Source of the DNA: Clostridiaceae bacterium
Lineage (GTDB): Bacteria; Bacillota; Clostridia; Saccharofermentanales; DTU023
Assembly: GCA_012799695.1 (NCBI GenBank)
Contig: JAAZKT010000084.1
Span: forward strand, 1-34,702
DNA: 34,702 bases
Reading direction: 5' to 3'
Part shown: in pieces, positions 2,674 through 34,702 of the stretch
How positions within the stretch are numbered: position 1 is the first letter of the stretch
Layout: each line of letters begins with the position of its first letter
Notes under the pieces: model-generated
What the model was told of the DNA's origin: nothing
What the model saw: the letters and a program-made list of their open reading frames with translations, nothing else
Databases searched by the model: none
Translations under genes and position numbers: made by a program

Positions 2674-3747
2674 ATGGACATCGGAGAACTGACAAAATTG
2701 ACGACGAGCGAAGATCGTTACGACGAGCTGACGGAGATGCTCGCCGATACGACGCTTATGCGCGATCGCGAGGCGTATGTCCGTCTCGTCAAGGAGCATG
2801 CGGAATTACAGCCGCTCGTTCAACTTGTCCGCGAACTCCGAGAGGTTCAGGAAGAGTTGGCGGTGAACCGAGCGCTTCTCTATGAAACGGACGATCAGAT
2901 TCTCCGCGAGCTCGCTCGCGACGAAGTCGCTGAGCTCGAAGAAAGAGAAACGTCTCTTGAAGCCGCCATCATGGAGGAAATCGAGCCGAAAGACGAAAAC
3001 GATGAGCGTAACGTCATTATAGAGATACGCGCGGGTACGGGTGGCGAGGAAGCGGCATTGTTTGCGGCAGATCTATACCGTATGTATGTTGCTTATGCGG
3101 AAGCGCGGAGTTGGGAAACGGAAATTGTCGATTTCAACGAGACGGAGTTGGGCGGTTTCAAAGAGATTGTCTTCATCATTGAAGGCAAGGGCGCTTTCAG
3201 TCGATTGAAGTATGAGAGCGGCGCGCATCGCGTACAACGTGTGCCGGAGACCGAGGCGGGAGGGCGCATTCACACTTCCGCCGTTACCGTCGCCGTCTTG
3301 CCTGAAGTTGATGAGGTTGATTTCGAGATTGATCCGAAAGACCTTCAGATCGATACGTATCGGGCGTCGGGTGCAGGCGGGCAACACGTCAACAAGACGA
3401 GTTCCGCTATTCGCATCACGCATCTTCCGAGCGGCGTTGTGGTGACGTGTCAGGATCAACGATCGCAACATAAGAATCGCGACAAAGCGATGGCGCACTT
3501 GCGCGCGATACTTCTCGACAAGGCCGAGCAGGAGCGCGCCGATGCGATCGCGAGCGAGCGCAGAAGTCAGGTGGGCTCCGGTGATCGAAGCGAAAGGATC
3601 CGAACGTACAACTTTCCGCAGTCTCGCGTGACCGACCACCGCATTGGCTTGACTTTGTATAAACTGGATCGCATTTTGGCGGGAGATCTCGACGAAATCA
3701 TCGATGCGCTACAAATCGCCGCGCACGAAGCAGCTCTACAGGCATAA
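2674..3747 (+). CDS. prfA: Peptide chain release factor 1
   Basis: RF1 recognises UAA and UAG in the ribosomal A site and triggers peptide release. The 357-residue protein has an N-terminal helical domain, the RF1-specific codon-recognition tripeptide PET (191-193, the P-x-T form rather than SPF of RF2), and the catalytic GGQ (235-237) within [15 protein letters not shown]. The frame is open further upstream into prmC, but I place the start at the ATG at 2674, which has GGAG 5-6 bases before it and gives the normal RF1 length and N-terminus. The upstream PrmC would methylate Q237. Confidence 0.96.
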
Positions 3748-3766
3748 CGACAAACTAGGAACAAGT

Positions 3767-5278
3767 ATGGACATGCGGATCATTCTCGTTGAACACCCGA
3801 TCGATGAAAGTCTTTTCGAGGAAGTCGGGGAAGCGCTGGCTACGGGTTCCATCGTGGCTTTTCCAACGGAGACCGTTTATGGGCTCGGGGCGTCCGCACT
3901 CCTTCCCGATTCGATTCGCGAGATCTTTCGCTTGAAAGGCAGACCGGCAGACAATCCGCTGATCGTCCACCTTCTGTCTGACAAGGAGTTGGACGGCGTC
4001 GTCGCTTCTATTCCGGATGCTTTTCACGTTCTGTACGAAGCTTTTTCTCCGGGTCCTTTGACCTATGTTATGCCACGCGGGGAACTGATTCCCGATGAAG
4101 TGACGGCAGGTCTTGAAACCGTCGCCGTACGATTCCCGTCACAGCCTGCAGCGCGCGCCCTGCTTGCAGCCGCCAAAGTTCCCGTCGTCGCGCCTTCCGC
4201 GAACGTGTCGGGCAGACCGAGTCCGACGAGAGTGCGTCACGTCCTCGATGATTTTGCCGGGCGCATTCCATGGGTCATCGATGACGGACCGTGTGAAGTC
4301 GGTCTGGAGTCGACGGTGATCGACTTGACATGCAGTCCTGTCAGAATACTGCGCCTTGGCGTCGTGACGGCAGAGATGATTTTTGAGAAGACAGGCATCG
4401 AGGCTGTCTTTTGGAAAGACGTCGTTCAAGACGAAGTTGTCGAGCGCCCCGCTTCGCCGGGCATGAAGTATCGCCACTATGCGCCAAGAGCGACGGTGCG
4501 TATCGTTCTTCCTAAGGAGGGACTTTCGATGTCCGATCAGCTGATCGAGCTCATGGATCCTGAGATCTCTATCGGATTGTTTTTCAGCGAATCGAGCTGG
4601 GATGAATTTCGCTCGAAAATGGACGCGTTTCCTCCGGGTCTTTATGTCTACACGTACGAGGGAGCCAGCGACCTTTCAAAGGCGAGTCATCATTTGTTCG
4701 ATGCGTTACGCACGCTCGACGAACAGGGTGTCGAACTCATTTACGCAGAAGGTTTTGGGGGAGAGAATGCCGCCGCGTACATGGATAGACTGACACATGC
4801 TTCAGCCACGAATGAAGATGCTGAAATTCGTCAAGTATTGTTCGTTTGTCAGGGCAACACGTGCAGAAGCCCGATGGCGGAGGCGCTGTTCAACGATCGT
4901 TATGGCGATACGGGATGGCGTGCGATTTCTGCAGGTCTTTCCACGATTCCCGGGTGGCCGGTCTCCGAACATTCGGTGGAAGCTCTGCGCGAATTCGGCA
5001 TCGATTGTCGCGGAATGACCTCCAAACCTGTTAACCGGAGGATGTTAAGCCAGGCGAGCCTTGTCGTTACGATGACGACGCTACAACGCGAGTGGCTGAG
5101 ACGGTCGGCACCTGAATTGAAGGACAAAATTATCTCGGTGGCGGATATATCGGAGCAATCACAGGACATAGCGGATCCTTTCGGTGAAACGCTTATTTCC
5201 TACCGACAGGTTCGCGATGAGTTAAGCGAAATTATGGATGATTTGCACCGCTTTTTACAGCAATCGGATCATTTGTAG
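3767..5278 (+). CDS. Fused Sua5/YwlC threonylcarbamoyl-AMP synthase and YwlE-type protein arginine phosphatase
   Basis: A 503-residue two-enzyme protein. Residues 10-205 are a YrdC/Sua5 domain with KGRPADNPL (57-65) and APSANVSGRPSP (142-153); this domain makes threonylcarbamoyl-AMP for the t6A37 modification of tRNAs reading ANN codons. SPGMKYRHYAP (230-240) is the Sua5 linker, and 245-345 the Sua5 C-terminal domain. Residues 355-503 are a low-molecular-weight phosphatase with the loop C361-QGNTC-R367-S and the general-acid motif DP (470-471). The Thr365 in the loop is the residue that in YwlE favours phosphoarginine, where tyrosine phosphatases have a bulky aliphatic residue. The ATG at 3767 has AGGA 6 bases upstream; it lies 19 bases after prfA. 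In Bacillus the two functions are separate genes of the same neighbourhood. Confidence 0.9.
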   Translation: MDMRIILVEHPIDESLFEEVGEALATGSIVAFPTETVYGLGASALLPDSIREIFRLKGRPADNPLIVHLLSDKELDGVVASIPDAFHVLYEAFSPGPLTYVMPRGELIPDEVTAGLETVAVRFPSQPAARALLAAAKVPVVAPSANVSGRPSPTRVRHVLDDFAGRIPWVIDDGPCEVGLESTVIDLTCSPVRILRLGVVTAEMIFEKTGIEAVFWKDVVQDEVVERPASPGMKYRHYAPRATVRIVLPKEGLSMSDQLIELMDPEISIGLFFSESSWDEFRSKMDAFPPGLYVYTYEGASDLSKASHHLFDALRTLDEQGVELIYAEGFGGENAAAYMDRLTHASATNEDAEIRQVLFVCQGNTCRSPMAEALFNDRYGDTGWRAISAGLSTIPGWPVSEHSVEALREFGIDCRGMTSKPVNRRMLSQASLVVTMTTLQREWLRRSAPELKDKIISVADISEQSQDIADPFGETLISYRQVRDELSEIMDDLHRFLQQSDHL

Positions 5279-33457: not shown

Positions 33458-34294
33458 ATGAAAGCGCGCAGTATGTTAGGTCGGTCGGTCCCCGGGACAT
33501 CTTTGGTACACCGTCTTGATGCGCGCATAAAATTCTTGGGCGCCATCGTGCTGATGGTGGCGACGCTTTCCGCACGCGACGTCCGTGTCCTAGGATTTTT
33601 TCTCCTTTGGACGGTCGTTATCGCGATCATTTCTCAGATTAAAATCAAGGTGATCATGCGCAGCATTCGCCCGCTGCTGTTTATCATTATCTTCGCGACG
33701 CTGTTACACCTATTCACGGTAGAGGGTCACGTGTTTCTACGGCTCGGCGCTCTCAAGATTACGCGCGAAGGTCTGATATCGGGCGGCTTGACGGCATTGC
33801 GTTTAGCCTTGATGGTGGTAAACACGTCGATGTTTTTGACGTTGACAACAACCCCGCTCGCCATCGCCGACGCACTGGAAAGCTTGTTGTCACCTCTTGC
33901 TTATCTTCACTTTCCAGTCCATGAATTCGCGATGATGATGTCCATCGCACTTCGATTTGTCCCTACACTTCTCGATGAGGCGGATAAGATTATGAAGGCT
34001 CAGTCCTCGCGCGGTGCCGATTACGATACGGGCGGTCCGTTACGAAGAATGCGAGGACTCGTGAGTATACTCGTTCCTCTCTTTATCTCCAGCTTCAGAC
34101 GCGCCGACGATCTCGCCATCGCTATGGAAGCTCGCTGTTACCGAGGCGGTACGGCAAGAACGCGTTTGCACGCATCGAAGCTCAAGGCCATCGACATCGT
34201 ATTCTCTTTCATTCTTTTGGGCTTGCTACTACTCGTCTTTGTGGTGCAACCGCATTTACCGCTATTGGCGTTTCCCGGAGGTTTGGCCTCATAA
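33458..34294 (+). CDS. ecfT: Energy-coupling factor transporter transmembrane protein EcfT
   Basis: The membrane scaffold that links the two ATPases to exchangeable vitamin- or metal-binding S components. The 278-residue protein has hydrophobic segments near 25-60, 72-90, 105-125 and 240-265, and the two cytoplasmic coupling motifs: QSSRGADYDTGG and EARCYRGG. It lies 49 bases after the fused ATPase gene on the same strand. The genes that usually follow in Firmicutes (truA, rplM, rpsI) are not here. Confidence 0.94.
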   Translation: MKARSMLGRSVPGTSLVHRLDARIKFLGAIVLMVATLSARDVRVLGFFLLWTVVIAIISQIKIKVIMRSIRPLLFIIIFATLLHLFTVEGHVFLRLGALKITREGLISGGLTALRLALMVVNTSMFLTLTTTPLAIADALESLLSPLAYLHFPVHEFAMMMSIALRFVPTLLDEADKIMKAQSSRGADYDTGGPLRRMRGLVSILVPLFISSFRRADDLAIAMEARCYRGGTARTRLHASKLKAIDIVFSFILLGLLLLVFVVQPHLPLLAFPGGLAS

Positions 34295-34372: not shown

Positions 34373-34702
34373 TCATAAATCTTCGAGCTGTTTACAATCA
34401 ATTCCCGTATACTTTTGGATGATATCTATACCCACCCCGTCATGTAACATCGCCTTGGCAATATTGATCGTCGCTTCTTCTTTGCCTTCGCCTTTGCCTC
34501 TCTGCAAGCCTTCTTCAAGACCGCTCTCATATTTCTCCATCATGATCGAATAGTGATCCATCTCAGCGATATGTTCGCGGATGTAGATCTCTCGCTCGCT
34601 CGGGGTGTAGAATACAGATTTCACTTTTTCATTGCATTCGCTCATGAGTTTATCTCCTTCCGATAGTGCGTTGCGTACCTTCTGGCTGTCTGTTCGTATG
34701 AA
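34373..34702 (-). CDS. Rpn-family recombination-promoting nuclease, C-terminal part
   Basis: The reading frame is open to the right edge, so the gene start is outside the window; 109 codons are visible. The visible part matches the C-terminal region of Rpn / PD-(D/E)XK nuclease family 'transposase' proteins: a charged helical stretch (SEREIYIREHIAEMDHYSIM), then Gly-repeat GLEEGLQRGKGEGKEE, then a small helical end with AKAMLHDGVGIDIIQKYTGI. The catalytic nuclease domain would lie beyond the edge. Rpn proteins are DNA nucleases with reported anti-phage and toxin-antitoxin roles. It is convergent with ecfT. Confidence 0.75.
   Translation of the reverse strand, partial: FIRTDSQKVRNALSEGDKLMSECNEKVKSVFYTPSEREIYIREHIAEMDHYSIMMEKYESGLEEGLQRGKGEGKEEATINIAKAMLHDGVGIDIIQKYTGIDCKQLEDL
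34475..34522 (-). repeat. Four-residue Gly repeats in the Rpn C-terminal region
   Basis: Four consecutive tetrads each start with Gly: GLEE, GLQR, GKGE, GKEE (residues 42-57 of the short product). The DNA copies have diverged, so it is a protein-level repeat. Variable four-residue repeats of this kind are reported at the dimer helix of RpnS. Confidence 0.6.
34643..34660 (-). promoter_or_regulatory. Internal ribosome binding site and start codon inside the Rpn frame
   Basis: On the minus strand GAAGGAGA (complement of 34653-34660) lies 7-8 bases before an in-frame ATG (complement of 34643-34645). It would start a separate 90-residue product MSECNEKVKSV..., identical to the C-terminal end of the long protein. 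Such internal starts make the small RpnS antitoxin in described Rpn systems. Upstream codons in the same frame are all sense to the window edge. Confidence 0.55.

Follow-up and report, generated by a model that had tools for sequence, protein, structure and literature searches.

At the end of the window, on the minus strand, lies part of an rpn gene whose family most probably has a two-product arrangement, a long nuclease (RpnL) and a short C-terminal protein (RpnS) with an antitoxin role, the latter started inside the same frame. We give this reading a probability of roughly 85% on the anatomy of the genes. The evidence includes a family of PD-(D/E)XK genes of which full-length members retain the internal start, conservation of that start far beyond chance, and free-standing short genes which begin there.

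The rpn fragment at the contig end

The window, meaning the whole stretch of DNA that was analysed, covers contig C12 entirely (34,702 nt; the assembly comprises 1.71 Mb in 133 contigs), so that its edge is an assembly break. A minus-strand ORF runs from 34702 to 34373, with 109 codons visible and no stop before the contig end. As the initial annotation had recognized, this is the C-terminal part (105–109 residues) of an Rpn (PF12784/TIGR01784) gene: it is 75–78% identical to residues 195–299 of a paralogue in the same genome (C106:45100-45996) and matches the C-terminus of TIGR01784 (E=2e-10, 40.9 bits), the score falling under the cut-off of 52.1 because the fragment has the C-terminus only. 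An in-frame ATG, also reported initially, is located at 34645-34643 in a frame open to the contig end. From it, 90 residues extend to the stop at 34373, defining a predicted RpnS-like protein which starts MSECNEKV (34373..34645, minus strand) and whose free-standing homologues begin at the same Met. The Shine-Dalgarno (SD) sequence GAAGGAGA (34653..34660, minus strand) is present in all copies of the genus; GGAAGGAGA ends 7 nt upstream of the ATG, with an SD duplex energy of -8.8 kcal/mol. Across the window's long ORFs, 5 of 202 in-frame internal ATGs (2.5%) have an SD as strong as this, so one such case alone could be chance.

Downstream of the ATG, a long helix carries four-residue (dodecamer) repeats, GLEE-GLQR-GKGE-GKEE (34467..34520, minus strand), and is followed by a C-terminal helical (HTH-like) tail which matches the E. 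coli RpnA-S structure (PDB 7TH0; 34373..34470, minus strand); the bounds of both features are approximate. Weak Pfam matches of the short products (ComA, Yae1_N, DUF447_C) were disregarded as chance or coiled-coil. Elsewhere in the window, a 524-aa plus-strand ORF (3704-5278), by eye a fusion of Sua5/YrdC-like and low-molecular-weight phosphatase-like parts, contains an internal ATG at codon 275 with an SD of -12.8 kcal/mol; this may be either another gene-within-gene or a fusion of recent origin.

The left neighbour of the fragment is ecfT (33458..34294, plus strand). In 7 related genomes truA comes directly after ecfT, hence rpn is an insertion between the two genes. The start of contig C131 carries, on the minus strand, residues 1–28 of what appears as another rpn copy, followed by truA. 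Both this N-terminus and the C-terminus on C12 are open and in frame. From synteny (ecfT and the rpn C-terminus at the end of one contig, the rpn N-terminus and truA at the start of the other), we infer that the two ends belong to a single gene which lies between ecfT and truA, interrupted by the assembly gap. About 166 residues of this copy, catalytic core included, fall in the gap.

Full-length paralogue and structural features of the family

The paralogue encodes 299 aa and possesses the same internal SD-ATG. Its PF12784 (PDDEXK_2) domain spans residues 24–249 (E=2.3e-46), and the catalytic D79, E93 and Q95, in the arrangement D...ExQ, are invariant across 5 relatives. Comparison of the full-length model with PDB folds gave weak matches only, some of them to PD-(D/E)XK enzymes (EndoMS, EcoO109I, MspI), and the fold assignment therefore rests on PF12784. 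A nuclease domain in frame upstream of the internal start, one of the checks proposed with the initial annotation, is thus present in the paralogue and in sister genomes, the N-terminus of the window copy lying across the gap.

The internal Met corresponds to residue 214 of the paralogue. It had been placed at a domain border, which does not agree with the Pfam limits (PF12784 reaches residue 249) but does agree with the structure modelled by AlphaFold2 for a sister protein (eight sequences, mean pLDDT 77). In this model, the Met lies at the first turn of a helix (212–222), beyond the catalytic alpha/beta fold, of which 164–170 is the last strand, and beyond connecting helices. Next come a very long helix (228–273), which bears the repeats, and two short helices. 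The best PDB match is 7TH0, whose chain residues 5–44 align with residues 67–106 of the 109-mer (E=0.022, 40 residues); taken alone this match is weak, although the C-terminal ends are in register. Among the genus copies, the GxxE repeat helix varies in length by complete four-residue units, 1 or 4 of them (4 or 16 residues). The distance from the Met to the repeats has a median of 47 residues and a range of 34–60.

All rpn copies of the genus, located at different chromosomal sites, have in common a leader some 90 nt long, which includes an extended -10-like element (TGCTATAAT/TGCTACAAT) and ends with GAAAGAGGAAA before the ATG (L002 upstream of 862; L020 85-190, minus strand; L017 upstream of 2013 and 3189). 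The duplicated unit thus seems to include its promoter.

Free-standing, deleted and arrayed copies in other genomes

Several related loci amount to natural experiments on this gene: a toxin deleted with the antitoxin kept, an array with separate short genes and no internal start, and a short gene on a viral contig. In one genome (G028), two full-length rpn genes stand in a row with an acetyltransferase-like gene and, last, a free-standing short gene of 129 aa. In the latter, homology begins at GAAGGAGATGAACTAATG / GAAGGAGATGAACTAATGAGC, and the preceding sequence is unrelated. The acetyltransferase-like gene (L017 4161-4628), GNAT-like by eye, separates the tandem rpn pair from the short gene.

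At the same chromosomal place, beside tatD and metG, a second genome (G027) has undergone a deletion which fuses the N-terminal 34–35 codons to the terminal part of the gene in a different frame. Read from the N-terminus, the frame reaches a TGA stop codon a few nucleotides ahead of the internal ATG. Despite this frame-shifting loss of the nuclease domain, the SD and a short ORF of 89 aa are intact. A third genome (G446) contains a tandem array of six long rpn genes without the internal start, and among them two separate short C-terminal genes (L085, G446 C1:2078000-2085500; short ORFs 1458-1724 and 4463-4753). The copies of this array vary in their number of four-residue repeats. Together, the three genomes point to the short product as an independent unit that selection maintains.

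On a viral contig (IMGVR_UViG_3300031555_005180; L082 1444-2773), an Rpn gene is followed by a second ORF with an rpnS-like part after AAGGAGG, in the vicinity of a ThyX-like gene. A short Rpn protein borne by a phage could act in counter-defence. A scan of viral contigs using the 90-aa product of the window as query found no relatives.

The deletion in G027 bears on the state of the window copy. This copy could be internally deleted in the same manner, because the assembly lacks its middle part of some 166 residues; it would then be a decayed gene whose ORF is now a free-standing orphan antitoxin read from the old internal start. G027 shows exactly such a deletion at another site, and free-standing short copies occur in sister genomes. 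This possibility is compatible with the two-product reading of the family, but we regard it as unlikely for the window copy, whose two ends on either side of the gap are open and in frame and whose genome holds an intact paralogue.

G027 also bears on what the short product would do. It might be made and yet serve as a structural or dimerising partner which activates or targets the nuclease, in the manner of Cas11, with no antitoxin function. Cooperative internal products are known (Cas11d, cited in PMC10327210), and the short product is longer here than E. coli RpnS. Against this, the homologous products of E. coli lift growth arrest and prevent both SOS induction and cleavage of DNA (PMC10327210), and retention of the short ORF where the nuclease has been lost, as in G027, fits an immunity role better. 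We hold a purely cooperative role to be quite improbable and retain the antitoxin role for the short product.

Conservation of the internal start

To evaluate conservation, rpn homologues were gathered at the levels of family, order, class and phylum as well as from plasmids, yielding 128 full-length-like proteins. These are represented by 47 Rpn proteins with <50% identity to each other. SD energy was computed for each in-frame ATG, GTG or TTG, a strong SD being defined as <= -8.5 kcal/mol, and the null was derived from 200 shuffles in which each gene had its synonymous codons permuted. Positions are numbered by the residues of the C106 paralogue.

A start codon with a strong SD lies between residues 201 and 218 in 39 of the 47 representatives, and 8 have none at this position. 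In the bin of residues 200–209, 32/47 genes carry such a start compared to 10.0 ± 2.4 in the shuffles (maximum 16 genes in any of the 200), about nine standard deviations above the null. The adjacent bin (210–219) contains 8 genes against 1.4 expected, and outside these two bins the counts match the null or come close to it, being about 0. An earlier run with a smaller set of 38 representatives gave the same picture (25/38 versus 7.3 ± 1.8). A start near residue 247, as in E. coli, was considered for Bacillota and rejected (1/47 in bin 240–249, null 0.5).

The internal SD-ATG is present in the full-length paralogue and in every sister copy of the genus. Among rpn genes tested separately, the plasmid genes of Paenibacillus, Priestia and Leptospira also have the internal SD start, while those of Planktothrix, Megaera, Aureibacter and Phocaeicola (Bacteroidota examples included) have no such site at this threshold.

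Internal SD and Met are thus strongly conserved, far beyond chance, and free-standing genes start there, which answers a second of the proposed checks. The initial view that so strong an internal SD is unlikely to be chance does not stand for the single case in the window, but it stands for the conservation of the site. That the SD-ATG might be an unused by-product of a Glu/Lys/Gly-rich protein segment can be dismissed as very improbable: the segment alone does raise the chance (10/47 in synonymous shuffles), and 2.5% of the internal ATGs of the window have an equally strong SD, but that same null falls far short of the observed count, and the internal SD-ATG is exactly where free-standing genes begin. 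The result is a statistically strong, phylum-wide signature of a putative internal antitoxin start, precisely placed in the PF12784 branch of Rpn.

Proposed mechanism

We propose that the rpn gene between ecfT and truA would encode two proteins in one frame, both presumably translated. RpnL would be a PD-(D/E)XK nuclease that ends in a helical tail, and RpnS (90 aa), starting at the internal SD-ATG just past the catalytic fold, would consist of nothing but this tail, made up of a short helix, the long helix with the repeats and a pair of terminal helices. The internal start would in this way supply an excess of the nuclease's own tail. By analogy with E. coli, RpnS would most likely pair with the same tail in RpnL and silence the nuclease, and phage infection or stress would free RpnL to cut DNA. 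The precise location of the start renders the gene-within-gene arrangement testable outside E. coli, and annotation pipelines could add the missing short Rpn proteins.

Comparison with known Rpn systems

In E. coli, full-length Rpn is toxic and is blocked by RpnS, whose translation begins at an internal start (Zhong et al. 2023, PMC10327210). Rpn repeats vary and determine specificity, free-standing rpnS genes occur, and a plasmid Rpn gives protection from T-even phages (PMC10327210). The genes described here resemble the E. coli RpnA/RpnB/RpnC systems in having a PD-(D/E)XK nuclease of COG5464 type with an in-frame internal SD-ATG, a C-terminal helical tail with four-residue repeats of varying number, and extra free-standing short genes and tandem arrays. 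The RpnL/RpnS gene-within-gene design put forward initially is accordingly borne out at the level of anatomy (gene family, conserved internal start, free-standing copies). Its extension to this lineage is true as well, but less surprising than was implied, because a C. difficile RpnS and broad conservation were already reported in 2023 (PMC10327210): the C. difficile rpn gene, with a predicted ribosome binding site (RBS) and internal start, yields RpnS when expressed in E. coli.

The differences concern family and position. E. coli RpnA belongs to PF04754, the present Rpn to PF12784. The E. coli start aligns to residue 247–248 of the paralogue and that of Providencia rpn to residue 248, in contrast to residue 214 here and 201–218 in Bacillota. 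The present start thus precedes the proven RpnS start of E. coli by about 34 residues and predicts a longer RpnS (61–143 aa, median 101, compared to 49–60 aa in E. coli). Likewise, the internal start is said to lie 8–20 residues before the repeats in described members (PMC10327210), a spacing exceeded by the median found here. We take this spacing as a property of the described members and not of the mechanism, and hence consider that the system would work like RpnL/RpnS with a different start position. Separate C-terminal domains also have a counterpart in E. coli ypaA and free-standing rpnS genes near rpn (some annotated DUF4351); unlike these, the free-standing copies of the sister genomes begin right at the parent gene's internal SD-ATG.

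As far as sequence can tell, an in-frame internal start with an RBS, a variable repeat number and a C-terminus resembling RpnA-S (7TH0) are all found, and the finding fits RpnL/RpnS in every such feature except the start position. We lean, with moderate confidence, towards the view that the PF12784-type Rpn of Bacillota and Leptospira constitute a second gene-within-gene class with a longer RpnS. Because of the upstream start, the antitoxin of this class would also hold the last helix after the catalytic fold, probably providing a larger interface to block the nuclease, and its free-standing short genes, one of them viral, would have been cut out at or near that start. The C. difficile gene, a Bacillota rpn whose internal start may or may not match the upstream site described here, is among the closest known systems, and we make no claim of novelty for the longer class.
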